In this document: positions 165 to 31,802 of the stretch, piece after piece
Position numbering within the stretch: position 1 is the first letter of the stretch
Layout of the letters: every line of letters begins with the position of its first letter
From: Candidatus Poribacteria bacterium
GTDB lineage: Bacteria; Poribacteria; WGA-4E; WGA-3G
Length of the DNA stretch: 35,096 nt
Reading direction: 5' to 3'
Assembly: GCA_022827885.1 (NCBI GenBank)
Contig: JAJEIP010000141.1
Coordinates: forward strand, 1-35,096
Translations under genes and position numbers: made by a program
The notes under the pieces: generated by a model
What the model was told of the DNA's origin: nothing
The model's input: the letters and a program-made list of their open reading frames with translations, nothing else
Databases searched by the model: none

Positions 165-254
165 TTATGAATAGGTTACTCCGTTATTGGATTGTGTCTC
201 TGTATTTTAGCATACATCTAAGCAATTTATCAAACATATAGGGCAGATTTTCCG

Positions 255-283: not shown

Positions 284-326
284 AATAGGAACACTGATCC
301 TCTATGTCGTTATAAGGAAGCTATGT

Positions 327-593: not shown

Positions 594-596
594 ACT

Positions 597-1640
597 ATGT
601 ACGATTTAGTTACGTTTGGGGAGGCGATGATCCGACTCACCGCCCCGGAATATATGCGCCTTGAACAGGTATCATCGCTGTCAATTACAGCAGGCGGGGC
701 AGAGATGAATGTCGCTGTGAACGCCGCACAACTCGGATTGCAAACGGCATGGGTGTCACGACTTGTAGACAACTGGTCGGGTCGCTATATCCGCAACAAA
801 GGACGTGAACTCGGTGTGGATATGTCGAACATCATCTGGGTCGATTTCGACGGGGTCGGGTTGGAACGGAACGGATTTTATCATCTTGAAATGGGTGCGG
901 GGCCGCGGGCGAGCAGCGTCACTTATGATCGCGGCTATTCCGCAATTTCCAATGTGCAAGTCGGAGAGATTGATTGGGCATCTATTTTCAGTAACGCCCG
1001 TTGGTTCCACCTCAGTGGAATTACGCCTGCCTTGTCGGAATCGGCAGCAGCTGTCTCGGCAGAGGCACTCAAAGCCGCACGCGCGGCGGGGGTCAAAACG
1101 AGTTACGATCTGAACTTCCGTTCCAAATTGTGGAGCGCAGAGGAAGCACAAGCCGCGAATCAACCGATGATGGAGCATGTCTCTGTTCTCATCGGGAACG
1201 AGGAGGATTTCGAGAAATCGCTCGGTTTCGCCGCGGAAGGGGCGACTGAGTCGTATAGCAGCCTTGAACCCGATAGTTACAAGGCGGTGGCACAGCGCGT
1301 CAAGGACGCTTTCCCCAGCATTGAAATGATCGGCACGACGCTGCGTGACGCCAAAACCGGGTGGCTGAACGATTGGCGGACACTCCTGTTTGATGGTTCA
1401 GAATTCTACCTCTCACGTATCTATGAGGATCTCGAACTGGTAGACCGCGTCGGCGGAGGCGATAGTTTCTCATCGGGACTCGTCTATAGCCTGTTGAATG
1501 GGAAATCACCACAAGAAGCCGTTGATTTTGCCGGTGGATATTCCGCCTTGGCGCATACGTTCCCGGGGGACTTCAACTGGGCAACGGCAGAAGAAGCAGA
1601 AAAAGCGATGGAAGCAGGAGGCGTGCGTATCAACCGCTAA
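597..1640 (+). CDS. PfkB-family sugar kinase (2-dehydro-3-deoxygluconokinase-like)
   Basis: A 347-residue cytoplasmic carbohydrate kinase of the ribokinase/PfkB superfamily, which transfers phosphate from ATP to a sugar or sugar acid. The N-terminus 'DLVTFGEAMIRL' and the glycine-rich GGAEMNVAVNAAQLG near residues 33-47 are PfkB signature 1. DRVGGGDSFSSG near residues 283-294 is signature 2, with Asp289 as the expected catalytic base and the GGGD anion hole. The usual form is DTxGAGD, so Thr/Ala are Arg/Gly here. Overall layout and the 'GEAMIRLTAP' start resemble KDG kinases, but substrate specificity cannot be read from sequence. AGGAG just upstream overlaps the end of the preceding small gene. 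A D-2-hydroxyacid dehydrogenase-like gene follows after 11 bases, suggesting a sugar-acid operon. Confidence 0.85.
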   Translation: MYDLVTFGEAMIRLTAPEYMRLEQVSSLSITAGGAEMNVAVNAAQLGLQTAWVSRLVDNWSGRYIRNKGRELGVDMSNIIWVDFDGVGLERNGFYHLEMGAGPRASSVTYDRGYSAISNVQVGEIDWASIFSNARWFHLSGITPALSESAAAVSAEALKAARAAGVKTSYDLNFRSKLWSAEEAQAANQPMMEHVSVLIGNEEDFEKSLGFAAEGATESYSSLEPDSYKAVAQRVKDAFPSIEMIGTTLRDAKTGWLNDWRTLLFDGSEFYLSRIYEDLELVDRVGGGDSFSSGLVYSLLNGKSPQEAVDFAGGYSALAHTFPGDFNWATAEEAEKAMEAGGVRINR

Positions 1641-1651
1641 TTAGAAAAACT

Positions 1652-2662
1652 ATGGAAACCAAAATTCTTCTTTCTCCTATTTTTGAAAATGCTGAATTCG
1701 ATACTATGGAGCGTCATGCGGCGTTGATAGACTTAGCGCTACTCGGTGAGTTGAGTGCCCACCCACCGGAATTTACCGCGGAACACGCCGAGGGCGTCAT
1801 TGGTGTGATCGCAGGGGGCGTGCCTTTTCATGAAAGTTTCTATCAAGCCGCGGAATCGCTCCGAATCATTGCCCGTTGGGGTGTGGGATATGAAACTGTT
1901 AACGTTGATTTGGCGACCGAGTATGGGGTCATTGTCACGATTGCTCCTGAACACATGGTGACCGTCGCTGAATATGCGATTGCACAGTGGTTCGCGACGA
2001 TGAAGCGGGTTTATACGCTAAACAATGCCTCCCATAACGGGGATTTCGGGCTTATCAAAACCCATGAGGTGATGGGGTCTACGCTCGGTTTGTACGGCTT
2101 CGGTCGGATCGGTCAAGAGGTTGCGCGTCGTGCGCGTCCGCTTTTGGGTGAGCGGGGGAGGCTTTTGGTTTACGATATCCGTCCGGATATCGCTGAAATT
2201 GCCGCGCAATATGGGGCGGAGGCTGTTGATACGCCGCTGGCACTCTTCCAAGAGAGCGATACGGTATCCCTACATCTATCGGGTGCGGACACTGTTGTCG
2301 GTTATGAGGAACTTTGTGCCATGAAACCGCATGCGTCTCTCATCAACCCCTCGCGTGGGAACCTCGTTGACGATGCAGCCGCGAACCGAGCCATCAACGA
2401 AAACCGACTCTGGTATTATGTCGTGGACGATCCGGTTAACGGACCACGAGCCATTCACAAAGACCACCCGCGCATCATCTGTACGAATCACAACGCCGGT
2501 ATGACTGTTGAATCCGGTATTCGGTTGGATCTTCGGACGATTGGGCAGGTGATAGATGCGATCGAGGGACGCGCACCCGCATACATGCTGAATCCGGAAG
2601 TCTTGGAGCATCCAAGGGTTAAGGCGTTTTGCAAGGACACTTCGCAACCCCTGAGACTGTAA
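1652..2662 (+). CDS. D-isomer 2-hydroxyacid dehydrogenase-like protein (phosphoglycerate dehydrogenase type), catalytic Glu replaced
   Basis: A 336-residue NAD(P)-dependent D-2-hydroxyacid dehydrogenase fold. The substrate domain contains 'IARWGVGYETVNVDLATEYGV', typical of PGDH-type proteins. The Rossmann motif GFGRIG lies at residues 149-154. The substrate-binding Arg is Arg235 (PSRG) and the catalytic His is His280 (TNHNAG). Ungapped alignment from Arg235 to E. coli SerA places Gly264 (in DPVNGP) where the family has the Glu of the EP motif that raises the His pKa. The cofactor site therefore looks intact while the acid-base dyad is incomplete. The start has no clear Shine-Dalgarno, and translation is probably coupled to the kinase 11 bases upstream. 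The gene meets the convergent methyltransferase gene with 2 bases between stop codons. Confidence 0.8.
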   Translation: METKILLSPIFENAEFDTMERHAALIDLALLGELSAHPPEFTAEHAEGVIGVIAGGVPFHESFYQAAESLRIIARWGVGYETVNVDLATEYGVIVTIAPEHMVTVAEYAIAQWFATMKRVYTLNNASHNGDFGLIKTHEVMGSTLGLYGFGRIGQEVARRARPLLGERGRLLVYDIRPDIAEIAAQYGAEAVDTPLALFQESDTVSLHLSGADTVVGYEELCAMKPHASLINPSRGNLVDDAAANRAINENRLWYYVVDDPVNGPRAIHKDHPRIICTNHNAGMTVESGIRLDLRTIGQVIDAIEGRAPAYMLNPEVLEHPRVKAFCKDTSQPLRL

Positions 2663-5706: not shown

Positions 5707-6957
5707 CTATGTATGGCGGATGGCGTCAATGGGAGCCATTTTAGCGGCTTGGCTGGCAGGATAATAACCGAAGAAGATGCCTACCGCCGCACCGGCACCC
5801 ACGGAGATGAGAACGGCTTCTGGGGTCAGGACGGAGGGCCACGCCATTTCTTGTAAAAACTTACCGACTATCCATGAAAAACCTTTTCCCACGATAGCAC
5901 CGAACGCGATACCGAGCAGACTCCCGATCAGACACAACAACACAGATTCCGTGAGAAACTGTAAACGGATGTCAAAACTTTTTGCGCCAACGGCTTTCCG
6001 CAACCCGATCTCTGGGATCCGTTCCGTCACCGAGACGAGCATGATGTTCAGGATGCCGATACCGGCGACAATCAGGGATACGGAAGCGATAACGACAAGC
6101 ACCGTCTCTATGATAAAAATCATCCTTTTCGCATGTGCGATACCCTTTTTCGCCGACCACGTTCGGAAGAAAGTATCATCACCACCATGATTACGCATGA
6201 TGATGGTCTTTACCTCTTTGAGTGCCTGTTCTACGAGGAGTGGACTCTTGGCACGCACCATGATATGCCCAACGTGATCGTGTCCCCAAAACCGTTTCTG
6301 TGCGGTTGTAATGGGAATGAAGAGCATGTTGTCATCGCTTTTTCCGCGTTCCAATCCATCGCCTCGACTCTCCATGATCCCGATGACAGTGAAACGTTTT
6401 TTGTTCCCATGACTGTCGACGATAACTTCTTTGCCAATTGGGTCCTGTCCTTTGAACTGCTCTTTCCAGATTTTAGCGCCGATAACGCAAACCTTTGTCC
6501 AAGTGTCCATATCGGTATCAGCGAGGAATCTGCCGTATTCTGTCTGCCATTCGCGAACGGCTTGGTATTCATTCGTCGTGGCGCGAAGATATGTTTGTTG
6601 AAATTTTCCATCAACGCCGAGACTGATGTAGTAACTCCCCTCAACAGTCGCAACCTCAACAGACGGACATTCTGTCAAGACATCCTGGAGGTCTTGCATC
6701 TCTAAATGGTGCGGGCTGTTGTTGCGTTGCCAACGTCCGTTTTTTCGGACATACCCGGGACGATAAACGCCAAACATATTGGGACCACCGATCTGGTTAA
6801 CCTCCGCCATGAGGAGTTTCTCGGCACCCGCACCAAAGGACATCATCGCGATGACACCCGCTATGCCGATCGTTATGCCTAAGAGGGTAAGGATCGTGCG
6901 GAGTTTACTTCTGCGAAGCACTGAAAATGCTGAGATAAGATTTTCGAGGATGTTCAT
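5707..6957 (-). CDS. MacB/FtsX-type ABC transporter permease, copy 1
   Basis: A 416-residue paralogue of the downstream gene with the same architecture: an N-terminal helix around residues 20-45, a periplasmic MacB-core domain, three C-terminal helices carrying 'NIMLVSVTERIPEIGLRKAVGAK', and the terminal 'AKMAPIDAIRHT'. It differs mainly in the periplasmic domain, including a four-residue insertion (VDSHGNKK in place of NNRR), as expected if the two copies diverge in substrate contacts. The ATG at 6957 has no convincing Shine-Dalgarno sequence. A possible promoter lies at 7103-7132, giving a leader of roughly 140 bases. The cognate ATP-binding subunit must be encoded elsewhere. Confidence 0.9.
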   Translation of the reverse strand: MNILENLISAFSVLRRSKLRTILTLLGITIGIAGVIAMMSFGAGAEKLLMAEVNQIGGPNMFGVYRPGYVRKNGRWQRNNSPHHLEMQDLQDVLTECPSVEVATVEGSYYISLGVDGKFQQTYLRATTNEYQAVREWQTEYGRFLADTDMDTWTKVCVIGAKIWKEQFKGQDPIGKEVIVDSHGNKKRFTVIGIMESRGDGLERGKSDDNMLFIPITTAQKRFWGHDHVGHIMVRAKSPLLVEQALKEVKTIIMRNHGGDDTFFRTWSAKKGIAHAKRMIFIIETVLVVIASVSLIVAGIGILNIMLVSVTERIPEIGLRKAVGAKSFDIRLQFLTESVLLCLIGSLLGIAFGAIVGKGFSWIVGKFLQEMAWPSVLTPEAVLISVGAGAAVGIFFGYYPASQAAKMAPIDAIRHT

Positions 6958-7351
6958 TTTTATTTTACTGAGTGTAGTGTTTGTTCAGGACTTAAGGATA
7001 GATGGGCAAAACTTTTGATTGCATCAATTCCCAAGATATGCTAAATTTTTTAATATAAAAACTGGCAGAGACCTCGCGAACCTATACTGTTCTTTGATGT
7101 TAAGTATATCACAAAACGTTTAGAGGTTGCAAATCACTTTTTTAAGTATGGACCTCTGACCCGCTTTCCATGCGTAAAGCAAAGACAACTTATGCCCTTT
7201 AAGGAAACCTAATTTCATTGCGAGCGGGTTCTTGCTCAATTCCAGTTGGGTTAGAAACATGGAAAGGGATTTGAAAGCACCGAAAACCACCGCATAACGG
7301 AGTGGAGCGGTGTCCAGAGACCCATAGTTAAAAAATTAGGAGCGAATAGTT
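6958..7351. other. Divergent intergenic region between permease and glycoside-hydrolase-like genes
   Basis: These 394 bases contain no credible gene. They hold a candidate minus-strand promoter at 7103-7132, an A+T-rich stretch around 7035-7060, and the Shine-Dalgarno AGGAG at 7338-7342 for the gene at 7352. No convincing plus-strand promoter was found. Confidence 0.6.
7103..7132 (-). promoter_or_regulatory. Candidate extended -10 promoter for the permease pair
   Basis: Read on the minus strand, TTGCAA (7127-7132) is followed after 18 bases by TATACT (7103-7108). The bases before the -10 read TTTTGTGA, giving an extended -10 (TGA-TATACT). The same TTGTGATA block occurs in the candidate promoters at 29734 and 29876. 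Confidence 0.4.
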
Positions 7352-9178
7352 GTGCAGACGGTCCCTTTTGACGCAGGAAGCATACTATCGTGGAGCGAGT
7401 CGCAAGAGGCAACGGTGCATCGAGCAGAATTAACCCAGTTGGTGCGAAATGGGGAACGCGCATGGGTTTCACTGCCAGCTGCGCTGTTGGAAACGCGGTA
7501 CCAACTGAACGCTGTGGAGCAATCCTTCAGTGAAGTGGAAAGCGCGACAGCGATTCAGGCGAAACTTCATCAGGCGCATGTCCAGAATAGCACTGAATTT
7601 GCGCAGCATCACCTAATCGCGCAACCGCAAGCGGATGCACCCTGCTATAATATCAGCGAGTATGTCCAGCGATGCATAGCCGGTGATCTCCCGGTCGCGG
7701 AACGGCTCCGCGGACGGACGGTCATACATCTTTACCAAACGGCAGCCGCAACGGAAGACCTTCTCAACAGCAGCGGGGTTTCGGGGTTCGTGAAACGCTT
7801 GCTGGTCAATTATATAAAGACTTATGGCAAAAAGCACCTTATCGGTTTCACTTGTGAACTGCCGAAGTTTTTGTCCTTAGTCAGCGTTCTGGGAACCGGT
7901 ATGACCTCGATCCCGTGGAGTCCTACACTTTTAGAAACGGCTGAGGAGACGCTGGCAACGTATCTGCCCTTGGTTTTCTACGAAACATATAACTCTGCGG
8001 CGGTCAGGAACACATTTTGGAACGAATTGACGACGAGATTCGCAACCTGCTTTCTTAAAGGGGTGCGCGATTTCTGCCATCAGGAAAGACTACAGTTTGC
8101 TTTAAGTCTCCCCGCAAGTGCAAGGGCATTGGAGTTTGAGTTAGGGGCGCTGCTATCAGAGGTGGACTGCTCTATCCTAAACGCCACCGAAATAGATACA
8201 CCGAAGCGATTCGTTATTGCGAAATGGGTTTGTAGCGATACACAGCACGCCGGTATTTCACGGAAGGCATCCCAGAAAACGGACGGACGGACTGTGCTTG
8301 AAGACGCGAGTCTCGGTTTTAATCTGTGGATAAATAAAGATCAGACGACAGGCCCTGAATCCGTTACGCTAACGCAAAAATTGTCACGAGGTTATCCAAA
8401 GAGACCGCTCCTTATGGTCGCACCGACACAGAGTCTCTGGACGAAACCTGATGAGAAGCAGTGGAATGGGTTGACGAAAGCGTGGGGATGGTTGTGTCAG
8501 AGCGTATGGGAATTGGGTTACGATTTCAGGATTGTCTCGGAGCAGGAACTGGGTTCAGCAGAAATTGTGAGGACTGGCAGCACAGGAAAAGGGGGCAATC
8601 GGCGGGGTGGATTGAGTTTCCTGAAAGACCCAGCAGATAGCAAGCCGATTTATAACGTTATTCTGCTCCCGAGTTGTATTTCGCTGCAAGAAGAGACGGT
8701 TAAACGTCTGAGCGCATTCACAAAAGCGAAGGGGAGATTGATAGCAGATGAACCGATTCCGTATTTGCTAAATGGTCGAATCGGGCTCGAACCGTATCCA
8801 CTCGAACACCTTATCTACGGACGGCGGACGACGATTCTACGGGGTCCGCAAAACGAGAAACTCGAGAAACTCGAAAAAAGTCTCCGAAAATGGGTGAAGT
8901 GTCCCCTATCGGTATACCTGAAACCCGGCAATGAAGAGACGCATCTCGTTCAGGTACACCACCGGGCAACGGAAGGATTTGAGACATTTTATCTCTTCTA
9001 CAGAGGTGCTGAACCCATTGACGCTTTGATAGAGATACACCGTCAGGTATCCTATATTAAAGAATGGGATTTGTTTAAGGGAACGGAAGAGACTGTTGAT
9101 TTTTGGCACGCGAATGGAAGGACATACCTCAATAGCACGTTTACAGTTAAACAGGGACGGCTTTTTGTTGTATCTTAA
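7352..9178 (+). CDS. Divergent glycoside-hydrolase-like protein with a GATase-like domain
   Basis: A 608-residue protein with a GTG start, chosen because AGGAG lies 9 bases upstream and an in-frame stop occurs just before it. No signal peptide is evident. The region 'LIGFTCELP...TSIPWSP' near residues 163-190, followed by a helix rich in aromatics and 'FWNELTTRFATCFLKGVRDFCHQERL', resembles the catalytic part of large alpha-L-rhamnosidase/beta-galactosidase-like (beta/alpha)8 enzymes (TDEP...PWT). Only Glu169 is kept here, where the family usually has DE. Later, 'RPLLMVAPTQSLW' to 'YNVILLPSCISLQEETVKRLSAFTKAKGRLI' matches the class I glutamine-amidotransferase-like domain found in such enzymes. 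Family placement is by pattern only. It may be a divergent or inactive glycosidase. Confidence 0.5.
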   Translation: MQTVPFDAGSILSWSESQEATVHRAELTQLVRNGERAWVSLPAALLETRYQLNAVEQSFSEVESATAIQAKLHQAHVQNSTEFAQHHLIAQPQADAPCYNISEYVQRCIAGDLPVAERLRGRTVIHLYQTAAATEDLLNSSGVSGFVKRLLVNYIKTYGKKHLIGFTCELPKFLSLVSVLGTGMTSIPWSPTLLETAEETLATYLPLVFYETYNSAAVRNTFWNELTTRFATCFLKGVRDFCHQERLQFALSLPASARALEFELGALLSEVDCSILNATEIDTPKRFVIAKWVCSDTQHAGISRKASQKTDGRTVLEDASLGFNLWINKDQTTGPESVTLTQKLSRGYPKRPLLMVAPTQSLWTKPDEKQWNGLTKAWGWLCQSVWELGYDFRIVSEQELGSAEIVRTGSTGKGGNRRGGLSFLKDPADSKPIYNVILLPSCISLQEETVKRLSAFTKAKGRLIADEPIPYLLNGRIGLEPYPLEHLIYGRRTTILRGPQNEKLEKLEKSLRKWVKCPLSVYLKPGNEETHLVQVHHRATEGFETFYLFYRGAEPIDALIEIHRQVSYIKEWDLFKGTEETVDFWHANGRTYLNSTFTVKQGRLFVVS

Positions 9179-9218
9179 CCGTTTTCGCGCATCGGTTTTG
9201 CCTGCGTGTTTTTGCTTG

Positions 9219-9248
9219 GGTATTTCTGCGTATTGTTGTAGGTTACCA
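9219..9248 (+). repeat. Dispersed 30-bp intergenic repeat, copy A
   Basis: Thirty bases starting GGTATTTCTGCGTATTG match the reverse complement of 14889-14918 at 26 of 30 positions, and all four differences are transitions. It lies in the short gap before the thiamine-diphosphate enzyme gene, where it could form part of the 5' leader. Confidence 0.6.
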
Positions 9249-9276
9249 TTTAACTTTATGAACCAAAGGAGTTATT

Positions 9277-10836
9277 ATGACCGGTGGAGACCTTTTTGTC
9301 GAATGTTTGAAAGAACAGGGTATGAGTGTTATTTTCGGTTTGCCAGGCAACCATTTAGACACTGTTTATGAATCCTTATACAACAATCAGGACAGCATCG
9401 CTCACTATGTCACACGACACGAAGGTGGTGCTGCATTTATGGCGGATGGTTACGCTCGCGCAACAGGCGATGTTGGTGTCTGTATGACTGTCCCGGGTCC
9501 TGGTTCAAATAACGCCTCTATCGGTATCGGTGAAGCGAATACAGCGTCTTCACCGGTGCTTTGGATTACTGGACAGAACCCGTCCTATTTAGCACAACGG
9601 GATCCGAAGAAGAGTTTCCATGGATTGGATCAAAAAGCTGCCTTCAGCACGATGACAAAACACCTCGAAATTGTGCATCGGGTAGACCAGATTCCGGGTG
9701 CCATTAATCGGAGTTTCAGTGCGCTCCGTTCCGGTAGACCTGGACCTGTGCTGATTGAGTTGGCGAAAGATGCTTTGGATGCCGAAGCCGATTTTCCAAT
9801 CCCGCCATGGAACAACGGGATTCAGACGACCGCAAGTCCGCAAGATGTAGATGCGGCACTATCGTTGTTGAGTACTTCAGAACGTCCATTGATTGTTGCG
9901 GGCGGGGGTATTAATCATACACGTGCGACCGCAGAAATCCTTGAGTTCGCAGAACTGCTGGACGCGCCCATCGTGATGACAGGCTTTGGGAAAGGTTCAG
10001 TGCCTGAAGATTCGCCCTATTCGATCGGTGTTTTCCGAGATGGTGTTTCCCAAGTAGCGATGGAAGCCGCTGACCTCATCGTTGCTGTCGGTACTCGGTT
10101 TAACTACCGGGATACCGGCAACTGGAGCCTCAAGATTCCACAACCCTTGTTGCATATCGAAGCCGATCCAGAAGAAATTCACAAAGAATATCCCGCGACT
10201 GTCGGCATCGGTGCGAATCCGAAATTGGTTTTGCGTCAGTTAAACGCCGCACTACGCGACGAAAAACCGAAAGGCGGTTGGGGTGAAGGGCTACGCGAAT
10301 TACGGAGACGCTGGACAGCAATCGAACGTCCTCGGATTCTCCAGGAGATGCGAGACGTGATGCCCCGTGACGCAATCTTGTCGGTTGACGTTAATATTAC
10401 GGGGTATGGCGCGCTGCCACATTTCCCGTGTTATTATCCAGGGAGTTACATCTTCTCCGGCGTATCCGTCGCAATGGGAATCGGATTGACAGGTGCTATC
10501 GGGGCACAGGTTGCCTATCCAGAGCGGAAAGTCGTCGCATTGAGCGGAGACGGTGGATTCTTAATGACGTGCCCAGACCTCGCAACCGCGGTGCTGTATA
10601 ATCTACCGGTTGTCACACTTGTGATGAACGATGACCAGTATACCTCGATTGAACGCGGGCAGCTCCGCCGCTTCGGTAAACGGATCGGTGTTGAACTTAA
10701 CAACCCGGACTTCGTGCAGTTCGCAGAATCGTTCGGTGCGGTGGGGTTACGCGTTGAAGATCCAAATGATTTTAAGCCGACGTTTGAAAAGGCACTCGCT
10801 TTGGATAAACCGGTGCTCCTTGAAGTCGTCAAATAG
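9277..10836 (+). CDS. Thiamine-diphosphate-dependent enzyme of the acetolactate synthase type
   Basis: A 519-residue ThDP enzyme. The N-terminal PYR domain contains Glu49 in 'TRHEGGAAFMADGYARATG', the residue that activates the cofactor. The central domain (about 190-330) has 'RPLIVAGGGINHTRATAEI' and 'VMTGFGKGSVPEDSP', typical of acetolactate synthase-like proteins. The C-terminal PP domain binds diphosphate and magnesium through GDG (424-426) and Asn451 in 'VMNDDQYTSIERGQLRRFG'. It would decarboxylate a 2-oxo acid and ligate or release the aldehyde; whether it makes acetolactate or acts on oxalyl, benzoylformate or sulfopyruvate-type substrates cannot be told. At 519 residues it is shorter than typical IlvB, and no IlvN-like regulatory subunit is adjacent. 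AAGGAG lies 5 bases before the ATG. Confidence 0.85.
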   Translation: MTGGDLFVECLKEQGMSVIFGLPGNHLDTVYESLYNNQDSIAHYVTRHEGGAAFMADGYARATGDVGVCMTVPGPGSNNASIGIGEANTASSPVLWITGQNPSYLAQRDPKKSFHGLDQKAAFSTMTKHLEIVHRVDQIPGAINRSFSALRSGRPGPVLIELAKDALDAEADFPIPPWNNGIQTTASPQDVDAALSLLSTSERPLIVAGGGINHTRATAEILEFAELLDAPIVMTGFGKGSVPEDSPYSIGVFRDGVSQVAMEAADLIVAVGTRFNYRDTGNWSLKIPQPLLHIEADPEEIHKEYPATVGIGANPKLVLRQLNAALRDEKPKGGWGEGLRELRRRWTAIERPRILQEMRDVMPRDAILSVDVNITGYGALPHFPCYYPGSYIFSGVSVAMGIGLTGAIGAQVAYPERKVVALSGDGGFLMTCPDLATAVLYNLPVVTLVMNDDQYTSIERGQLRRFGKRIGVELNNPDFVQFAESFGAVGLRVEDPNDFKPTFEKALALDKPVLLEVVK

Positions 10837-16107: not shown

Positions 16108-19100
16108 TTAGAAGTAAGATCTGCCCAGCGAGCTTCCGGATCCGAATGCGTTGTAAGGTGCGCCTGCAGGTAAAGTATGGAGTCCCCACGTTTCGGTCGT
16201 TGCGTCATAACCCACACCCATCGAAACCGCAGGCTCCTGAATCAGATTGACTTGGAACGTGAAGTCCTGACGGACGTTGTTATAGGGCGAGTCTTCGCGC
16301 TTAATGCCGACACGGTTCCAAGAGATGCGGAGGTTCCAATCGTGGAGATTACGCGTCATACTAATGCGTTGTGAATAGAATTGTCCCTCAATCGGGTAAT
16401 AGATAAGGCTTACATCAAATTCGAGGTCTTGGCTAACCCGGTAGCGTCCAGTGGCAGTAATCGATCGAGAGGCGCGTCTGGAGGTATGCCGTTTACTAAA
16501 AGAGTTACCGATACTGACGTTCCAAGCCGGACGGGTGTATCGGATATTCGTCCGGAACCCGACCATCTTAAACTGTTTCCCATCGTCGGGATGCGGGTTC
16601 GGATCGTGTGTGAATCGGACGGTCATATTTAGGTTCCGACTCGGAAGCGGGACGAATGTGAAATCGCTCTCAATGGGTTCATATTTCCGTCTATATAAAG
16701 GATCGAACTCCGTGAAATCGGCGGTGAGTCGGGTATCAAAATAGAAGATACGGTGCGCCGACTGGCTCCGTCGGGTCTTGATTTCAAAGTTTGTATTGAA
16801 GTTATAGGTGAGCCTTTTCCGTTCATAGAAATAGGTGCTGGGACCGAAAGGATAGAGGTTCTCATCTTCATCAACAGCAGGTTGATAATTGAATCGGAGT
16901 GAGGATTGGATCTCATGTCTCAACTTTCGGAGGCCAGGAATATAATCGACGTTGAAGACACGGAAAAGCGTGTTTGTGGCGGATCCATTGAAACTATAAA
17001 CACCCTTTACAATGTTCCGATTCTTCTGTTGGTCTTGGTCATGCCATATCATATTTGTATTGACATCAAGGCTCATTTGGAGTTCTCGCAAGGGCGTAAT
17101 CAGGAGCGTTGACTGCTTACGGACATCGAATCCGAGGTCCAGCGTCTGTAGATATACATCTCTCTCATCACCCTCTTTCCCCTTATAGACCTCTCTAAAG
17201 AAGTTCCCGAGTTCAACATCTAAGTCGAAACTTGTGCTTTCAAGGGTTGGAACGGTGAAAAGTGAAAGAATCGGTGTTTCCGTTTTGAACTTTTCAGCGA
17301 CGCTTTCCATCCGGTCATTGAGGCGTCCGAGAAGCGGTAGGGCACTCACACGCATCCGCGAGAAATTCACAGTAAATTGTGGCAGTTTCTGTAGCGAAGT
17401 TGTGCCTTCACCCGTGAAATCATGAACGTGTCGAACTTCGAGCCTACCGGTAATATCCCCGATGGTTTCCCGTGAAAACGTGAGGTTACCATTCTCGTCG
17501 CGATCGTTGTCAGACACGGTAGACAAACCCGTTCCATAGGTGAGTATTCCGAAAGTGTTAAGCCTGGACTCTCCGGGGAGCTTCAGTTCTTCCTTGAAAT
17601 TACGGGCTTGCAACTCCGTTCTACCAGTGAAATTGATCGGACGTCTGCCTTCTGCCCGGCTATCCCATGGCGTATAAAAGGATTGCGTATGTCCCCATCG
17701 CATAATCCACCGTCTACCGATGCGTGTTGCGTTCTGCCGTTCGTAGGAGTACCGGTCTGCGCCGTAGAAATAAATATCGCCTCGGTAGGTTCTCTTTTTG
17801 TCGACTTTGATGAGTCGGAAGGACTTTTTGGTTTGAATAGGACGGCTGCTGTATTCACCCGCGTATAGCCTTTGGGCATCTGAGGCGACAGCACTCGGAT
17901 CCTCCCATCTTCCACGAAAACCGTGTTTCCGATAGACTTTCAGTTCATCCTCCTCTTCTTCGGCAGCTTCTTCGGTAGCAGCCTCTTCAGACGATGTGTC
18001 GTCCTCGGACGGCTCGGAAGTCGTTTCGTCTTCTACTTCACGCTCTGATTCGTCCTGTTCTACGGTTTCGTCTTCATCAGTATCGTCTATCTCGGTCTGC
18101 TCTACGGTTTCATCTTCATCGGTGTCCGGGATATCGCCATCAGCCTCCTGCCTTCGGTTTTCAGTCTCACTTTCTGTACTGGGGCTGCTTTCTATTTCGG
18201 ACGGACTGCTGACTTCTGACTGTTGATCACTGACCGCTGCTTCTGTTGTGTCTTCGGATCCATCCGTCTCTTCTATATCTTGTGAGTCGCTATCTCCTTC
18301 AATTTCTTCCGGTTTAGGGTTCATCACGTCTTCGTAGAAAGTATCCCACTCCGCCTCAAACTGTTCAGCGAGTGCCTCGAAGGTCGGGGTCTCCTCTTTT
18401 TCGATCAATTGGAAAATATAAAGACCTTCAGGCATGGTGATAGGTCTCCGTTCAATAACATCTCCTGGATTCTCTAATCGCCTCACTGCGGAGCGCCACG
18501 AGGATTCCATCTCGTTTAAGAGCAAGCCATTACCTTCATTCGGTTCGGATAAGGTCGGTTCGGCGAGGGCTGCGAATTGCTCAGGAACATGTATCAGTTG
18601 TTCAAACGGCTCGCCTTCGTGGGCACGTTTGAGCATGTCATCTGCCAATTCGCGCAGGACGGATTCCGTCTCTTCACTGGCGGTAATAGCAATATCAATG
18701 CGGCGGAGTTTAATTTCACGTTCGCCATAGACATCAAGGACCCGTTCTGCTTTAAGGATGTGGAAGGCAGATTCAGTTTGGACGATAGGACTAATTTCTC
18801 CCTCTTGTAGTGCGAACAGGGCTTCCTCTAAAATTGGATCGAGTTTGGGTTCGCCCTCCTCGTCAATTTCGCCAGGGACGAGGAATCCCATGTCGCCGCC
18901 ATCGTAACGGGTGTCGAAATGGTCAGAATTGTTCTGTGCGATTTGTGCGAAGTCAGCCCCTTCTTCTTGAAGCTGCCCAAGCACTTCTTCTGCCTTGTCG
19001 CTTGCACGCTTGACATCCTCTTCAGTGATTTTATATTCTATAAAAATCTGACGCAGCCAATAACGGTCGTATTCACCATCAAGCCGGTCCTGCAATTCAT

Positions 19101-20022
19101 CTGCTTTTTCTTTTAATTTCGTGCGTTGGTTCGGTGTTACATCGGGTGGAATCGGGATATAGATTTCTTGAAACTGTGTATCATTGAATCGGTATTTGCC
19201 TTCGAACCCGAATCCTTGTCCTCGCTTTGAGCTCCTATCGTAGAGCAATGCTCCATCGTAACGGCGTTTCCGGGCCACAGGTAAAATGATGCTGATGTTC
19301 GGACCTTGATAACTATCCGTTCCAATTTTTACGATAATCTTTGCGATCTTACCTTTTCGTATGTCCCGCCGAATGACAGGAAAATAGAAGAGGGGAAACC
19401 CACCGATACGTAAAACGATATTTTTCGCGATCATCTCCTCATCTTTTTGAACAATCACTTCGGACACACTGAAATAGTAGTGCGGATATTTCAATGAGCA
19501 GGTTGTGAGGGAGGCACCGCGAATATAGGAGCGATTTTCCTGTATTTTAAAGATTTCACTGCCCCCGAAGTACCACGGGTCGCTGAAAGTAAACCCGTTT
19601 CGGGCAATTCCTTTCTTGTTGTCAAGGTTAAAGATGAGTTCATCGGAGTAAGTTTCTTCGTCCCCAATCTTTAGGTGGACGTTCCCGGAAGCTCGCATCA
19701 GGTTGTCGTCGAAATCCGCCCAGATATGGTCTGCTCGGAGAATGACATCCTCAAATTTGATTAGCGCATTCCCGTGAATTTGGACGAAATTATCAACCAT
19801 AACCATATCGTCGCCATCGCCGATGATCATGCCTTCTCCAGGGACATCTGTTTCCGGGTTCAAGCGTTCCGAGCCGGATCCCTCTTCCTGGGTCTCATCT
19901 GTAGATTCTTCAGACGCGGGAGGTTCAACGGGTTGTGCCTCTTGGGCAATAATGGATTGTATTGGGAAACCAAGGAGACAGGCAATGACGAGTAGTATAT
20001 GGAGAGCAGTCCAGGAGGCCAT
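16108..20022 (-). CDS. lptD: LptD-like LPS-assembly outer membrane protein with an internal SurA-like double parvulin module
   Basis: A 1304-residue protein, against about 780 in E. coli LptD. In order: a signal peptide (residues 1-26); an acidic stretch; an OstA/LptD N-terminal domain (about 70-270) with 'VQIHGNALIKFEDVILRADHI' and 'LTTCSLKYPHYYFSVSEV'; a canonical parvulin domain (about 320-430) with 'YDGGDMGFLVPGEI' around 374-385; a second, degenerate parvulin-like segment (about 430-560) ending in the SurA-like helix 'FEAEWDTFYEDV'; a highly acidic linker (about 568-694); and a C-terminal beta-barrel ending in a terminal Phe (GRSYF), the usual outer-membrane barrel signal. LptD inserts LPS into the outer leaflet together with LptE. 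The start lies 3 bases after the surA stop, so translation is probably coupled. The inserted parvulin module is the unusual feature. A frame artefact is unlikely because one uninterrupted frame spans it all. Confidence 0.88.
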   Translation of the reverse strand: MASWTALHILLVIACLLGFPIQSIIAQEAQPVEPPASEESTDETQEEGSGSERLNPETDVPGEGMIIGDGDDMVMVDNFVQIHGNALIKFEDVILRADHIWADFDDNLMRASGNVHLKIGDEETYSDELIFNLDNKKGIARNGFTFSDPWYFGGSEIFKIQENRSYIRGASLTTCSLKYPHYYFSVSEVIVQKDEEMIAKNIVLRIGGFPLFYFPVIRRDIRKGKIAKIIVKIGTDSYQGPNISIILPVARKRRYDGALLYDRSSKRGQGFGFEGKYRFNDTQFQEIYIPIPPDVTPNQRTKLKEKADELQDRLDGEYDRYWLRQIFIEYKITEEDVKRASDKAEEVLGQLQEEGADFAQIAQNNSDHFDTRYDGGDMGFLVPGEIDEEGEPKLDPILEEALFALQEGEISPIVQTESAFHILKAERVLDVYGEREIKLRRIDIAITASEETESVLRELADDMLKRAHEGEPFEQLIHVPEQFAALAEPTLSEPNEGNGLLLNEMESSWRSAVRRLENPGDVIERRPITMPEGLYIFQLIEKEETPTFEALAEQFEAEWDTFYEDVMNPKPEEIEGDSDSQDIEETDGSEDTTEAAVSDQQSEVSSPSEIESSPSTESETENRRQEADGDIPDTDEDETVEQTEIDDTDEDETVEQDESEREVEDETTSEPSEDDTSSEEAATEEAAEEEEDELKVYRKHGFRGRWEDPSAVASDAQRLYAGEYSSRPIQTKKSFRLIKVDKKRTYRGDIYFYGADRYSYERQNATRIGRRWIMRWGHTQSFYTPWDSRAEGRRPINFTGRTELQARNFKEELKLPGESRLNTFGILTYGTGLSTVSDNDRDENGNLTFSRETIGDITGRLEVRHVHDFTGEGTTSLQKLPQFTVNFSRMRVSALPLLGRLNDRMESVAEKFKTETPILSLFTVPTLESTSFDLDVELGNFFREVYKGKEGDERDVYLQTLDLGFDVRKQSTLLITPLRELQMSLDVNTNMIWHDQDQQKNRNIVKGVYSFNGSATNTLFRVFNVDYIPGLRKLRHEIQSSLRFNYQPAVDEDENLYPFGPSTYFYERKRLTYNFNTNFEIKTRRSQSAHRIFYFDTRLTADFTEFDPLYRRKYEPIESDFTFVPLPSRNLNMTVRFTHDPNPHPDDGKQFKMVGFRTNIRYTRPAWNVSIGNSFSKRHTSRRASRSITATGRYRVSQDLEFDVSLIYYPIEGQFYSQRISMTRNLHDWNLRISWNRVGIKREDSPYNNVRQDFTFQVNLIQEPAVSMGVGYDATTETWGLHTLPAGAPYNAFGSGSSLGRSYF
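18055..18126 (-). repeat. Two 30-bp direct repeats inside the acidic linker of the LptD-like gene
   Basis: Copies at 18055-18084 and 18097-18126 (period 42 bases, 14 residues) encode DTDEDETVEQ twice. They differ at only a few positions, mostly third-codon sites. The linker has probably grown by slippage or duplication. Confidence 0.7.
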
Positions 20023-20025
20023 AAA

Positions 20026-21333
20026 TTAAAAATCTTTCAGTTCAATTTTAATGTAAGCGTTTTCAAGGAGTTTGTTGGTGTATGCGTCCCACTCCTCTTG
20101 GAATCGCTGCTGGCGGAGTATCGAAGTAATCTGTTGTTTCTCTACTTCACTGAGACTTGGACTATTCCGTTCGTCAACTTTAAAAATATGGAGACCGGAT
20201 TCGGTTTCATGGGGCTGACTGTAAGTGTCGGGTTCGAGAGCTTCAATGATTGTCCGAGTTTTCGGATTCAGTTCAGTTAACGAGCGGATCCCGAGATCCC
20301 CGCCGTTATCTCGCGTCTCGGTGTCATCGGAATGTGCTGCTGCGAGAGCATTAAAATCTTCGCCGTTTTCCAGTTTTTTGAAGACTTCAACAATGCGCTC
20401 GCGCGCTTCCTGCATAGCCGCTGCACTCGGTGTGAGGGGAACAATAAGATACCGAAATGCGAGCATCTTATCGGTCTTCATTTCGACAGTGAAAACGTAG
20501 AGTCCCTCGTTTCCTTCAACTGGCTCGCTGAATTGACCAGCCTCCAAGTTTGTGAGTACATCCTGGAATATCTTTGGAAACCTTTTGAGCTCCTCTGTGG
20601 TAGCTTCTATGAGAACTCCTGCCTGTGAACTTGGGTTCTCTTGAGAGGTGTAGCGTTGTGCCAGCTCCTCAAACGTCGCGCTCCCTGTTGTGATTTCACT
20701 CAGGACATTTTTTACAACTTCAGCTGCGGCATCCCGATCGGCTTGATTCGGGGCAAAGGCGACAAAAATGTGTCGTAAGTGCACTTTATCTGTTTTAGTC
20801 GGGAGTTGGTCCCGATTTTCCTCAAAGAATTCTTGAATCTCGCGCTCGCGTACTTGCAATCGAGGGACAATTCTTCCCATCACCAGTTTCTCTGCTTTGA
20901 GATTTCGTTCCGACTGCTCTCGAAACGCTACGAGTGTCATACCCTCTCTGTTTAATTGCTTTTTAAATTCTTCGTCCGTTTCAATTTTATATCTCTTCTT
21001 AAAGTCTTGGATGTACTGCTCAATTTCTACATCGCTGACGGTAACTTTCAGCGTTAATGCGGCTTCCAAAAGCAGCATCTGTCTGATGAGTCGGTCCAGT
21101 AATTCGGGTCTTTGTCGCTCTGCCTCGTTGAGTGCTTCCCGTTCGCTGAAACGATAAACCTGTTGGAGTTCCATGGCACGCTGATTCACCAAGACATCGA
21201 GTTCCCGCTTGGTCACGACATCGTCGTTGACGTAAGCGATGATTTTGTCAAAGGTGCGAGCCGCACTACTCCGCGCACTACTGCTAATGAGTAGTAGGAT
21301 AAGCATAAGATAGGCAGTTATTCTACAAACCAT
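20026..21333 (-). CDS. surA: SurA-like periplasmic peptidyl-prolyl isomerase/chaperone
   Basis: A 435-residue protein, close to E. coli SurA (428). The ATG at 21333 is chosen because GGAGG lies 8 bases upstream and a signal peptide (about residues 1-24, 'LMLILLLISSSARSSA') then starts at once; a longer frame exists upstream but reads through a hairpin. The mature start 'IIAYVNDDVVTKRELDVLVNQRA' is typical of the SurA N-terminal chaperone domain. Two parvulin domains follow. The first ('LRHIFVAFAP...SSQAGVLIE') has a weakened GG-LG motif, and the second ('HSDDTETRDNGGDLGIRSL') is canonical. The C-terminal helix is 'QQRFQEEWDAYTNKLLENAYIKI'. SurA escorts outer-membrane barrels, LptD above all, through the periplasm. 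It is directly upstream of the lptD-like gene, the same partnership as in E. coli. Confidence 0.9.
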   Translation of the reverse strand: MVCRITAYLMLILLLISSSARSSAARTFDKIIAYVNDDVVTKRELDVLVNQRAMELQQVYRFSEREALNEAERQRPELLDRLIRQMLLLEAALTLKVTVSDVEIEQYIQDFKKRYKIETDEEFKKQLNREGMTLVAFREQSERNLKAEKLVMGRIVPRLQVREREIQEFFEENRDQLPTKTDKVHLRHIFVAFAPNQADRDAAAEVVKNVLSEITTGSATFEELAQRYTSQENPSSQAGVLIEATTEELKRFPKIFQDVLTNLEAGQFSEPVEGNEGLYVFTVEMKTDKMLAFRYLIVPLTPSAAAMQEARERIVEVFKKLENGEDFNALAAAHSDDTETRDNGGDLGIRSLTELNPKTRTIIEALEPDTYSQPHETESGLHIFKVDERNSPSLSEVEKQQITSILRQQRFQEEWDAYTNKLLENAYIKIELKDF

Positions 21334-21377
21334 TATGGATGCCTCCATTATCGGTTTTCGGTTCGGAGAGTGGATTT

Positions 21378-21416
21378 GGTTGGAAGGTTGGGGCACCCGT
21401 CCTTCCAACCTTCCAT
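21378..21416. repeat. Pair of mutually exclusive hairpins upstream of surA
   Basis: GGTTGGAAGG (21378-21387) can pair with CCTTCCAACC (21401-21410). Alternatively TGGAAGGTTGG (21381-21391) can pair with CCAACCTTCCA (21406-21416). The two stems overlap and cannot form together. They lie in the 90-base gap between the upstream parvulin-like gene and surA, in the leader of surA. No T-tract follows on the minus strand. Confidence 0.6.
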
Positions 21417-21423
21417 CCGAGGG

Positions 21424-22449
21424 TTATTCTTCAGGTTCTGCCTCTGCTGGAGCTTCTTCGGATTGTTCTTCCTCCGATGCCGCCTCGGCTTCTTCAGATT
21501 CTCCCTCCGGAATGCGATCTATATACGTTTTGACTTCGGCGCGTTCTCGGAGTTCGGCAACCCAGCTGTCCATGAGTTCCTGTCGTTTCTCACGTTCCGC
21601 TTTTCGGATAACACTCTTACGAACGTCTTCCTCCTCAAACGGTTTTTGGTATTCATCGCGGGCTTCGTCTTTTCGGAAGATCATGTAGTATTTCTCTCCC
21701 TGAACGTCGACTTCAATGACACCCTCGTGCATCTGACCGATCTCCGCAGCAAACGCCGCATCCAAGAAAGGCTCAGTTCCCGAAGGGAAGGCATTCCGAC
21801 TAATATAGTCGGTGTCACCCGGCGTAGAAGGATTCGCACCGGGACCGACGAGTTCGCCGCGGTCGGAGAGTTCCTGAGCGACTTCAAGGATGTCTTTGCC
21901 TCCCGTGATTTGGGCGTAAACTTCATCAGCCCGCTCTTTATTCATGAGCGTGACACAGGAAAGTCTGACCTGCGCAGGACGCACATACTCTGCTTTGTTC
22001 GCTTCGTAGTGCTGAATGTAGTCGTCTTCAGTCAAAACGAGTTTGTCGTCGATCTCTTGCGCTGTGATTTTCTTAACCATCAACTCATGAAGATAATCCT
22101 GAACCTTTTTGAGTATCTCTGGGTCTTCGTTGAGTTTTTCGTCTCGGGCGAGACTGAGAATGAGACGACTCTCCGCCATAAGGAGCATATAGGTTTCCAG
22201 CCCCTCTTTATCCTGATATTGACGCTGCTTGTATTCGGGGAGCTCACTAATTTCCAGCATCATCTCTTCAAGCGTGATGCGCTGTTTACCATTCCAGTCA
22301 AATTCAGCGATGACGGTTCCATCAGCACCGATCGCTTTATCGCCGCAGCTATAAAAGATAGGGTGCGTAACAAGGATCCCGATTAAAAGTAAAGGGACAA
22401 TTCGCGACGAAAAAATTCTGCCCATGAAGCGGGCAACTCCTGTGAGCAT
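21424..22449 (-). CDS. Parvulin-like (PpiC/SurA) envelope protein, probable lipoprotein
   Basis: A 341-residue protein. AAGGAG lies 8 bases before the ATG. A hydrophobic segment at residues 16-34 ends in FYSC, a possible lipobox with Cys35. The architecture is that of a SurA-type chaperone: a long helical N-terminal half ('LPEYKQRQYQDKEGLETYMLLMAESRLILSLARDEKLNEDPE'), then a PPIC-like domain ('VRLSCVTLMNKERADEVYAQITGGKDILEVAQELSDRGEL') in which the usual GGDLG motif is replaced by 'PGDTDYIS'. The C-terminus is an acidic, Glu-rich tail (about residues 314-341). It is clearly paralogous to the gene upstream (22517-23485). It may hold folding clients without isomerase activity. Confidence 0.8.
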   Translation of the reverse strand: MLTGVARFMGRIFSSRIVPLLLIGILVTHPIFYSCGDKAIGADGTVIAEFDWNGKQRITLEEMMLEISELPEYKQRQYQDKEGLETYMLLMAESRLILSLARDEKLNEDPEILKKVQDYLHELMVKKITAQEIDDKLVLTEDDYIQHYEANKAEYVRPAQVRLSCVTLMNKERADEVYAQITGGKDILEVAQELSDRGELVGPGANPSTPGDTDYISRNAFPSGTEPFLDAAFAAEIGQMHEGVIEVDVQGEKYYMIFRKDEARDEYQKPFEEEDVRKSVIRKAEREKRQELMDSWVAELRERAEVKTYIDRIPEGESEEAEAASEEEQSEEAPAEAEPEE

Positions 22450-22516: not shown

Positions 22517-23485
22517 CTACTGATCTGATTCCTCGGTTTCCGCTTCTTCGGGTTTCGGCGGCTCCGGAATATTTTCAGCATAGGTTTTTAACTTACCTTT
22601 TTCCGTAATTTCGGAGACCCATTCATTGATGCGGGCGCGTTTCTTTTCACGCTCAACGGTTCTTCGGACATCGTCTTTGACCTCATCGAATTCCTGCTGA
22701 CGGTCCGGGTGATGCTCTTCTTTACGGAAGATGAGATAGAAGGTTTCATCGTTGACATCTACCTCAAAAAGGGTATCCGTCATTTCGCCGATCTCTTGCG
22801 CAAAGACTGCGTCAATGAATTCCGCCCAACGCGGTGATGCGGATTTGGTAAACATGTAGGTGTTCCCTGGGTCATCTTGATTGGTGCCAGGTCCGTTGGC
22901 GAGTTTACCCGCTTCGCCGAGTTCTTTTGCCATCTCAATGATATCTTTGCCTGCTTTGATGGCATCAAGGGTCTCATTGCCAAAATCTTCATCGTCAACC
23001 GTAATGCAGGTTGCGCGAACTTTGGCTTCCTCAATGTAATCGCTCAAATTCGCTTGATACTTCGCCATGAGATCCTCATCGGAAATGACGATCTTCGCAT
23101 CCACTTCAGCCTCAGTCAATTTTTCAACCATCAGTTGATGGGTGTAATCCTCAAGCTTTTTGACGTGTTCATCAAGCGTATCGAATCCGTCGTCGGCAGC
23201 GCGAAGAATCTGGAGACGTTCATCTATCAATTCCTCAAGATACTCGGCTTTGTCTTCCCGAGTCTCGTAGTTCTGTTGACGATAAACGGGCAATTCTGCG
23301 ATGGCAGCGTTCAAATCCGCCAATGAGATTTGATACGGCTCGCCATTCCATTTGTACTCTGCCAAAATTATCTTGCTTTCGTCCATAGCTGCCATGGGTT
23401 GTTCATGATCATCGGATTGAACAAATTTCCATGTCAATAGACAGGTCAGAGTAACAATTACAAAGATAGCAATCGTTTTTCTCAT
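22517..23485 (-). CDS. Parvulin-like (PpiC/SurA) periplasmic protein, paralogue
   Basis: A 322-residue protein with an N-terminal signal or anchor (residues 1-20, 'MRKTIAIFVIVTLTCLLTWKF'; a Cys at position 15 is not in a good lipobox). The helical chaperone part ('LPVYRQQNYETREDKAEYLEELIDERLQIL') and the PPIC-like part ('VRATCITVDDEDFGNETLDAIKAGKDIIEMAKELGEAGKL') run parallel to the downstream gene along most of the length, marking a tandem duplication. The parvulin GGDLG motif is replaced by 'PGNTYMFT'. The tail is acidic (EEAETEESDQ). A copy of the recurrent leader motif lies 13 bases before the ATG, and AAGGA within it can act as ribosome binding site. Confidence 0.8.
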   Translation of the reverse strand: MRKTIAIFVIVTLTCLLTWKFVQSDDHEQPMAAMDESKIILAEYKWNGEPYQISLADLNAAIAELPVYRQQNYETREDKAEYLEELIDERLQILRAADDGFDTLDEHVKKLEDYTHQLMVEKLTEAEVDAKIVISDEDLMAKYQANLSDYIEEAKVRATCITVDDEDFGNETLDAIKAGKDIIEMAKELGEAGKLANGPGTNQDDPGNTYMFTKSASPRWAEFIDAVFAQEIGEMTDTLFEVDVNDETFYLIFRKEEHHPDRQQEFDEVKDDVRRTVEREKKRARINEWVSEITEKGKLKTYAENIPEPPKPEEAETEESDQ

Positions 23486-29940: not shown

Positions 29941-30438
29941 ATGAAAACACTTTTGATTCTGAGACACGCTAAATCCAGTTGGAATTATCCAGAACTCTCT
30001 GACTATGATCGACCTCTCAATAAGCGGGGTAAACGTGACGCACCGCGTATGGGAAAATTTCTGCGTGAACAAAAATTAACACCCGACAGGATCCTCACTT
30101 CATCCGCAAAAAGGGCAAGGAGAACCGCGAGTAAAGTCGCAAAAGCGTGCGGTTATGAGGGGAAAGTCAAAAAATTAGATACATTTTATGATGCCGTCGT
30201 CGGGGTTTACTTCGAGACCTTACAAGCATTGCCGAAAAAATACGAGCGTGTCATGGTCGTGGGACACAATCCGACAATGGAACAACTCGTAGGCTATTTG
30301 ACTGGACAGATCCGCCGGATGCCAACCGCAGCACTTGCCCATATTGAACTCCCGATCCAACATTGGGAAGAATTGGACTTGAATACAGGAGGAACCTTAG
30401 TCAACTTATGGACTCCCAAAACGCTTTTCACCGATTGA
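29941..30438 (+). CDS. sixA: SixA-like phosphohistidine phosphatase
   Basis: A 165-residue histidine phosphatase. 'LLILRHAKSSW' at the N-terminus carries the nucleophile His9 in the RHA-K-S-W form typical of SixA rather than of phosphoglycerate mutases. 'ILTSSAKRARRTASKVA' supplies the conserved Arg, and His109 in 'VVGHNPTMEQL' is the second catalytic histidine. SixA removes phosphate from histidine of phosphotransfer proteins (HPt domains or the nitrogen PTS protein NPr), tuning signalling. The extended C-terminus ('ALAHIELPIQHWEEL') is normal. AAGGA lies 6 bases before the ATG. The last 31 bases overlap the next gene. Confidence 0.88.
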   Translation: MKTLLILRHAKSSWNYPELSDYDRPLNKRGKRDAPRMGKFLREQKLTPDRILTSSAKRARRTASKVAKACGYEGKVKKLDTFYDAVVGVYFETLQALPKKYERVMVVGHNPTMEQLVGYLTGQIRRMPTAALAHIELPIQHWEELDLNTGGTLVNLWTPKTLFTD

Positions 30439-31802
30439 GCCAATGGTTATCAGTGACACTGCTTCTCCTGTTTGCAGGCTTTGGCACGCTCTGCAGACCC
30501 TCCTCGGCTGAAATTCCGGTTTCGACAGCGAAAGACGGGCAATTCCTCCCATGGGTCGTGGACGATGGTGAGGGGGGTGTTATTGTTATGTGGGAGGATT
30601 ACCGAACCGGTAAGGATTGGGACGTCTACGCCCAGCGTATGGATAGCAGTGGCACACCGCGTTGGGAAGAAAATGGGACCGCTATCTGTACGGCGGATCG
30701 GAATCAACGTCGCTTACGAATGATTCGGCACGAACAGCACGCCATCGTTGTTTGGAACGATAGGCGCGACAGGAGTAATTGGGATATCTATGCGCAAGCC
30801 GTGAATCTTGAGGGGGATGTGCTTTGGCAAACAGATGGTATACCCATCTGCGTGAACAGTGCGGATCAATCCACACAAGCGATTTTGGGTGATGGTGAAG
30901 GCGGGGCTATCTGCGTTTGGGAAGATGAACGTCGAAGCTCCGAATTTCAAGATTTGTACATCCAACGGATTAATACGAAGGGCGAAACGCTATGGGAACC
31001 TAACGGAATCCCCGTTTTTCCATCGGAATCCCTCCAGAGCGATCCGATTCTGCTTGCAGACGGGACGGGAGGTTTCTATATTGTTTGGTGGGATGTCATC
31101 GGGTATGACGCTTGGCACATCATGGCATATCGACTGAGTTTAGACGCGGAACCGTTATGGGACGCGCCGCGTCTCATTTCACCAGCAGAAGGGATGCAGG
31201 GCGAACCACGGGTGATTGCTGATGGGGCAGGTGGATTCATCGTCTTGTGGCAGATTTACGAGAATTTCATCAACGATCAGCTTTACGCCCAACGGATTGC
31301 ACCCGATGGTCGCAAATTGTGGACGGACACAGGGGTTCCTATTTGCACTGCGTCCGGTATCCAGAAACACGCCTCGGTTGTGAACGACGGAAAAGGTGGT
31401 TTCATCGTCGTCTGGAGAGATGAACGCGATGTCTATTCCGATTTATATATGCAGCGCATCCGTGCCGATGGCACCCTCGTTTGGGAGAAGGATGGTATCC
31501 CATTTTGCACAGCCGGTGGACATCAAGACAAGCCCTTCGTCGTGCGAACTGCGGAAAACCGTTTTTCTGTGGTGTGGTTGGACTATCGAGAGGATTTCGG
31601 AGAGGAGAGTAGCGATGCCATATACCGCCAGCAAATTGATTTAGAGGGCAAACCCTTATCGGACAGAAACGGGATCGCTATTTCTACAAGTGAGGGGAAA
31701 CATTATCCGCCGTTTGTGGTAACCGTTGGCGCGGGGAAATGGTTTGTCGTCTGGAGCAACACCCAGAAAGACAATGGCGATATCTATCTTGAACGGTTTT
31801 AG
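30408..31802 (+). CDS. Secreted beta-propeller-like repeat protein
   Basis: A 464-residue exported protein. The ATG at 30408 gives a signal peptide directly ('LSVTLLLLFAGFGTLCRPSSA'); an earlier in-frame start would put 15 residues before it. AGGAGG lies 15 bases upstream, so coupling to sixA (31-base overlap) probably helps. The rest is built of repeats of about 50-55 residues, each with 'DG-GG-(I/F)-IVVW-DxR', '(D/N)-DLYAQRI', 'DG---W---GIPIC'. Seven full repeats plus a half repeat at the C-terminus can be counted, as expected for a propeller closed by strand exchange. Function and ligand are unknown. Its stop overlaps the stop of the convergent ATPase gene by 3 bases. Confidence 0.75.
   Translation: MDSQNAFHRLSQWLSVTLLLLFAGFGTLCRPSSAEIPVSTAKDGQFLPWVVDDGEGGVIVMWEDYRTGKDWDVYAQRMDSSGTPRWEENGTAICTADRNQRRLRMIRHEQHAIVVWNDRRDRSNWDIYAQAVNLEGDVLWQTDGIPICVNSADQSTQAILGDGEGGAICVWEDERRSSEFQDLYIQRINTKGETLWEPNGIPVFPSESLQSDPILLADGTGGFYIVWWDVIGYDAWHIMAYRLSLDAEPLWDAPRLISPAEGMQGEPRVIADGAGGFIVLWQIYENFINDQLYAQRIAPDGRKLWTDTGVPICTASGIQKHASVVNDGKGGFIVVWRDERDVYSDLYMQRIRADGTLVWEKDGIPFCTAGGHQDKPFVVRTAENRFSVVWLDYREDFGEESSDAIYRQQIDLEGKPLSDRNGIAISTSEGKHYPPFVVTVGAGKWFVVWSNTQKDNGDIYLERF

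Follow-up and report, generated by a model that had tools for sequence, protein, structure and literature searches.

Does an outer membrane protein carry a folding helper of its own within its chain? This question was raised by a 35,096-nucleotide stretch of DNA (contig JAJEIP010000141.1; referred to here as the window) from a metagenome-assembled genome (MAG) of Candidatus Poribacteria, a sponge-associated bacterial phylum. One open reading frame of the window had been read, from the letters of the sequence, as lptD with a built-in module of two parvulin domains resembling those of the chaperone SurA (the original prediction). LptD is essential in most bacteria that make lipopolysaccharide (LPS) and is a drug target. 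We found that the frame encodes the LptD of this bacterium and that one turn of its barrel, predicted to be periplasmic turn T2, holds an array of three parvulins, nested such that a discontinuous outer unit (C) encloses a tandem pair (A and B). The best overall explanation, to which we assign a probability of about 0.5, is that the array, with A-B related to the P1-P2 parvulin pair of SurA, acts as a non-catalytic chaperone and scaffold that is covalently attached to its client.

Identification of the frame as LptD

The frame comprises 1304 codons (positions 16108 to 20022, minus strand, as for all features below unless stated otherwise; the original prediction gave no strand). As had been predicted, the encoded chain consists of an OstA-type beta-jellyroll domain followed by an LptD barrel that ends in Phe. 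The jellyroll spans amino acids (aa) 61 to 229 (positions 19336 to 19842), as delimited by hhalign against Escherichia coli LptD and by the AlphaFold2 (AF2) model of a deep homologue (L108). It is followed by barrel strands 1 to 4 (aa 230 to 280; 19183 to 19335; AF2 and alignment to E. coli strands 1 to 4) and, past the insert, by barrel strands 5 to 26 (aa 746 to 1262; 16237 to 17787; AF2 and hhalign).

When the insert was left out, the poribacterial profile matched an E. coli-led LptD profile over nearly the whole length (hhalign, E 3e-39) and an Omnitrophota-led LptD profile at E 2e-40. For the barrel of the window protein, Pfam returned no more than a weak LptD_2 match (PF19838, 24.5 bits; cut-off, 22.5). 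The best structural matches in Foldseek were LptDs (4q35, E 7e-22, for the homologue model; 9rqi, E 1e-8, for the window chain), followed by SurA-like peptidyl-prolyl isomerases (PPIases), SurA, and single parvulins (3gpk, TM-score 0.77). The LptD protein of the closest named record is 96% identical. Like E. coli and other diderm LptDs, the protein thus combines a jelly-roll N-domain with a 26-stranded barrel, matches over the full length of the profile, and occurs in a genome that also encodes LpxC, LptF, and LptG (i.e., an LPS-making host with the inner-membrane partners of the Lpt system). It differs from them in the three parvulin folds of T2 (with an acidic linker in one order), in the lack of the disulfide Cys residues, and in a helix in turn T5, which is replaced by a parvulin in the deepest poribacterial class.

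Position of the insert in the barrel

The original prediction had placed the module between the N-domain and the barrel. Instead, AF2 and hhalign place it inside the barrel, after strand 4. In the insert-free alignment, the junction KYRFN/YRGDIYFYG pairs with E. coli EFRYLSQAGAGLMELDYL (aa 275 to 292). In published work on E. coli LptD, extracellular loop L1 contains T237-N239 and L4 contains K346/T351 (PMC4493717), and Tyr-331 belongs to strand beta7 (PMC8423444); the periplasmic turns are named T1 to T12 (PMC4353691). On our own strand assignment from these landmarks, the insert is predicted to lie in T2, between strands 4 and 5.

The AF2 models agree with this assignment. The window chain (aa 222 to 1304) was modelled with a mean predicted local distance difference test score (pLDDT) of 75 and a predicted template modelling score (pTM) of 0.57, and L108, which is without the acidic linker, with a pLDDT of 79 and a pTM of 0.59. 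DSSP assigned 26 barrel strands in both models, 4 before the insert and 22 after it. Because 22 is an even number, the insert is on the same side as the C terminus, i.e., the periplasmic side. The nearest non-poribacterial LptDs (L124 to L127) have a short, ordinary turn at this site. An extracellular placement (after strand 3) was considered since the literature assigns the gate prolines to "strands 1 and 2"; it was ruled out by the gene-based numbering of E. coli LptD (P231 in GFLIP, strand 1) together with the strand parity.

Architecture of the module

Parvulin C is discontinuous. Its N-part (strand 1 and helix 1; aa 281 to 318; 19069 to 19182) was defined by AF2 and by splicing in L108, and its C-part (aa 545 to 745; 17788 to 18390) by AF2 and by the PF00639 matches of L108 and L110. 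The tandem A-B sits between helices 1 and 2 of C. Parvulin A, which is SurA P1-like (aa 319 to 432; 18727 to 19068; PF00639, AF2, and tree), matches PF00639 over aa 326 to 426 with 78.3 bits (cut-off, 21.7; E 9e-22). Parvulin B, which is SurA P2-like (aa 433 to 544; 18391 to 18726), is degenerate, as anticipated; it was recognized by AF2, by the tree, and by the corresponding segment of L108, which scores 81 to 87 bits. AF2 gives parvulin domains in the region (aa 320 to 560) where the two units had been expected.

The count of two units, which the original prediction had proposed, stands for A and B and leaves out C. A two-parvulin reading was rejected on the strength of the HMM matches in L108 and L110, the splicing, and AF2: both homologues contain three PF00639 stretches (E 6e-55 overall in L108), and the score in L108 rises from 40.4 bits for the C-part by itself to 51.4 bits for the spliced N-part and C-part. 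The segment that had been taken for a SurA-type C-terminal helix (aa 548 to 567) is helix 2 of parvulin C. According to DSSP, C is continuous with the barrel at both ends: barrel strand 4 runs without a break into strand 1 of C (aa 268 to 290), as does the last strand of C into barrel strand 5 (aa 734 to 758). We regard this architecture, taken together with the homology of the units, as close to certain.

The long acidic linker noted at the outset is present and predicted to be disordered (aa 573 to 692; 17947 to 18306; pLDDT < 50). It interrupts parvulin C in the order to which the window belongs and is absent from deeper families. Among the homologues, it is between 6 and 175 aa long; in the window protein, the stretch around it contains 57 Asp/Glu in 130 aa.

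Turn T5 of the window protein contains a helix only (aa 896 to 911; 17290 to 17337; AF2), as in other Poribacteria. The T5 turn of the deepest poribacterial class, represented by the MAGs G060 and G061, holds a further parvulin and a strand-helix fragment of another (L123, ORF 6797 to 10591, plus strand, aa ~735 to 885; L141, ORF 1 to 2334, plus strand, aa ~240 to 385). These T5 parvulins suggest that parvulins were repeatedly inserted into, or lost from, the turns of LptD.

Relationship of A and B to the adjacent SurA

The minus-strand gene order of the locus is mfd, two PpiD/SurA-like periplasmic proteins, surA, and lptD. The surA gene (20026 to 21408) lies directly upstream of lptD with a 3-bp gap and encodes a SurA_N core and two parvulins, namely, P1 (20473 to 20778) and P2 (20164 to 20457), which the tree relates to LptD A and B, respectively. 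In this tree of parvulin domains (104 columns, and hence indicative rather than conclusive), LptD A and B clustered with poribacterial SurA P1 and P2 (support 91/96) to the exclusion of the SurA of other phyla, the PpiD-like protein of the genome, LptD C, and the T5 domains. B grouped with P2 (89/84), and A mostly with P1. A and B are thus probably relatives of the P1-P2 pair encoded by the neighboring gene, whose tandem order they share. In contrast to SurA, the insert has no SurA_N core (no Pfam match within the window LptD, so that the insert is not a SurA), A-B lies inside a third parvulin rather than between SurA N- and C-regions, the A-B active sites are lost, and the module is covalently part of the client. 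The fold is also shared with the parvulins PrsA, PpiD, and PpiC (TM-score as above for 3gpk), which, unlike the LptD module, are stand-alone or membrane-anchored chaperones and do not reside in a beta-barrel turn.

In 60 of 67 loci, lptD is immediately preceded by a two-parvulin surA. The arrangement differs in five genomes of one family (f5; G050, G054, G056, G057, and G058), in which the core of the adjacent SurA is joined straight to the C-terminal helix and P1-P2 is gone. No other two-parvulin SurA was detected by PF00639 in these five genomes, two of which are not complete (G056, 79%; G058, 64%). Their PF00639 matches were confined to LptD, PpiD-like proteins, a few single-hit proteins, and a fused upstream periplasmic protein, so the only P1-P2-type pair found is the one in LptD. 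The f5 SurA is a naturally occurring counterpart, in its core-only architecture, of the N-Ct form of E. coli SurA (Behrens et al. 2001, as cited in PMC9820271); what sets f5 apart is that the missing pair has a relative inside the neighboring LptD. The f5 SurA lost exactly the domains whose relatives reside in LptD, which suggests that parts of the helper moved into the client.

Upstream of surA, the window encodes two PpiD/SurA-like periplasmic proteins (21424 to 22449, Rotamase_2, 37.2 bits; 22517 to 23485, Rotamase_2, 32 bits). In f5 (L118, L120, and L121), one fused gene of 706 to 739 aa corresponds to these two genes.

A descent of A-B from a general chaperone, as indicated by the tree, would also be compatible with a function in trans, in which the module is a P1-P2 unit anchored in the outer membrane and LptD is a docking station that passes other outer membrane proteins, or core-only SurA, to the beta-barrel assembly machinery (BAM). 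The f5 genomes lend this idea some weight, given that their SurA is without P1-P2 and yet other outer membrane proteins must still be assembled, and the long flexible acidic linker of one order could provide reach. However, the loss of active-site residues has gone further in A and B than in SurA P2, where Asp and His2 are still present; welding domains into the LptD barrel would be a costly route to a general chaperone; and in E. coli the SurA core is functional even in isolation (PMC9820271). We therefore consider a station in trans unlikely, with perhaps one chance in five in its favor.

Distribution and selective constraint

The window LptD protein was matched in 84 of 85 Poribacteria genomes, and the insert is present in all of the 66 aligned poribacterial LptDs, several of which come from single-contig chromosomes. 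A frame created by misassembly, which had been named as a possible source of error, is refuted by these data. No fused LptD-parvulin was found among the 285, 289, 297, and 19 genomes sampled from four other phyla, a search that had no positive control inside the groups; the collection scan saw only LptDs matching two peptide patterns, and rare cases in other phyla are possible.

The ratios of nonsynonymous to synonymous substitution rates (dN/dS) against close relatives were 0 to 0.23 for the module domains, 0.02 to 0.07 for the barrel, and 0.17 to 0.57 for the linker. Both parts of parvulin C were among the most constrained segments. The module domains are under purifying selection. The strong erosion of B in the order of the window is what might be expected of a decayed, functionless insertion that is tolerated in a periplasmic turn; set against its occurrence in every aligned LptD and the selection on the module, next to which the adjoining linker evolves far faster, this explanation (or an artefact of assembly) is extremely improbable.

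One MAG (G020) contains two module-bearing lptD copies (C35 and C130), whose products share 73% and 74% identity with that of the window. With a bin contamination of 9%, the pair may reflect mixed strains or a real duplication.

Loss of active-site residues

The first parvulin had been described as canonical. Parvulin A is well above the family threshold but is not fully canonical, since its first active-site His is never His in the 66 sequences (Gln in 58, Arg in 5, and Glu in 3). Asp 377, Phe 403, and the second His (His 421) are kept in most of them. The residues examined are gone from B and C in nearly all of the sequences. As the active sites of A, B, and C are largely lost, isomerase activity of the module is unlikely. 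An active PPIase fused to LptD would account for the PF00639 score of A and its three mostly retained residues, but it fits poorly with the losses in all three units, and SurA itself can do without PPIase activity (PMC9820271); we consider this possibility very improbable. Of the proposed chaperone/isomerase module, the SurA-like character is supported by the grouping of A-B with P1-P2 and by the f5 SurA, and the isomerase part is not supported.

A proposed chaperone in cis or a possible part of the mature translocon

In E. coli, the folding of LptD is strictly dependent on SurA (PMC9820271). SurA without its parvulin domains works in vivo, and P1 and P2 aid client binding and delivery (PMC9820271, PMC11401910). 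When the C-terminal strands of E. coli LptD engage BamA, its N-terminal half still lacks structure on BAM, and a module between strands 4 and 5 would stand in this late-folding half. Parvulin C would fix the hairpin of strands 4 and 5, and A-B would hold neighboring strands in cis, as SurA P1-P2 would in trans. Guiding of barrel folding by the module is thus plausible. A supply of P1-P2-type function in cis would explain why a SurA without P1 and P2 could be sufficient in f5. This loss fits a chaperone in cis, since the SurA core can work by itself in E. coli (Behrens et al. 2001, as cited in PMC9820271 and PMC11401910). Among the mechanisms considered, a cis assembly chaperone for LptD appears the most likely, at slightly less than even odds. 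A historical scenario can be put forward somewhat more tentatively: early in the phylum, SurA P1-P2 would have been copied into an LptD turn that already bore a parvulin; the barrel would since have chaperoned its own N-terminal strands in cis; and the trans copy would later have been lost in f5, with the function moving from helper to client.

Several observations weigh against these interpretations. The pTM of just 0.57 to 0.59 in both models leaves the orientation of the module relative to the barrel and the jelly-roll unfixed. The support values of the tree are narrowly below the "starred" threshold, and the grouping of A with P1 is incompletely resolved, the two deepest A domains falling beside the P1 of L108. 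Most Poribacteria retain an intact SurA, so the module is no simple replacement for it. Finally, constraint is strongest in C, where neither catalytic nor known client-binding features are present; this would also fit a static structural role.

Such a role could be that of a permanent part of the mature LPS translocon, in which the module clamps the jelly-roll to the barrel, takes the place of the E. coli disulfides, or acts as a plug or guide instead of LptE. The mature chains of 63 of the 66 poribacterial LptDs contain 0 or 1 Cys, so that the paired Cys for interdomain disulfides of the E. coli type are absent and such bonds cannot form. LptE (PF04390) had no match at E <= 10 in the window genome, and the continuity of C with strands 4 and 5 places this constrained unit near the beta1-beta26 seam. 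However, enterobacterial-type Cys pairs are not universal in LptD, and their absence is not disqualifying: module-less LptDs of Omnitrophota and others (L124 and L125) can also be without the paired Cys of the beta24-25 turn. LptE diverges fast, which makes a Pfam miss weak evidence, and no contacts of the module to the jelly-roll or the lumen were seen in this analysis. We consider a permanent clamp or plug improbable, though somewhat less so than a station in trans. The attached chaperone and scaffold proposed above is the reading that we retain.

Novelty and other features of the window

No description of an LptD with built-in parvulins was found in the literature searched (open-licence articles in PubMed Central), in line with the original prediction, which knew of none. 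What is new here is that a genuine LptD contains, within a turn of its barrel, homologues of SurA domains. An LptD with absorbed P1-P2-type domains, together with an f5 SurA that is without them, amounts to a natural experiment on the role of the SurA parvulin domains. Furthermore, several folded domains can be accommodated in one periplasmic turn of a large barrel and be fused directly to the barrel strands, which bears on models of folding by BAM and on barrel engineering.

Elsewhere in the window (30363 to 31802, plus strand), a secreted repeat protein with recurring "GGxIVVWxDxR"-like motifs is encoded, which looks like a beta-propeller or a surface protein.

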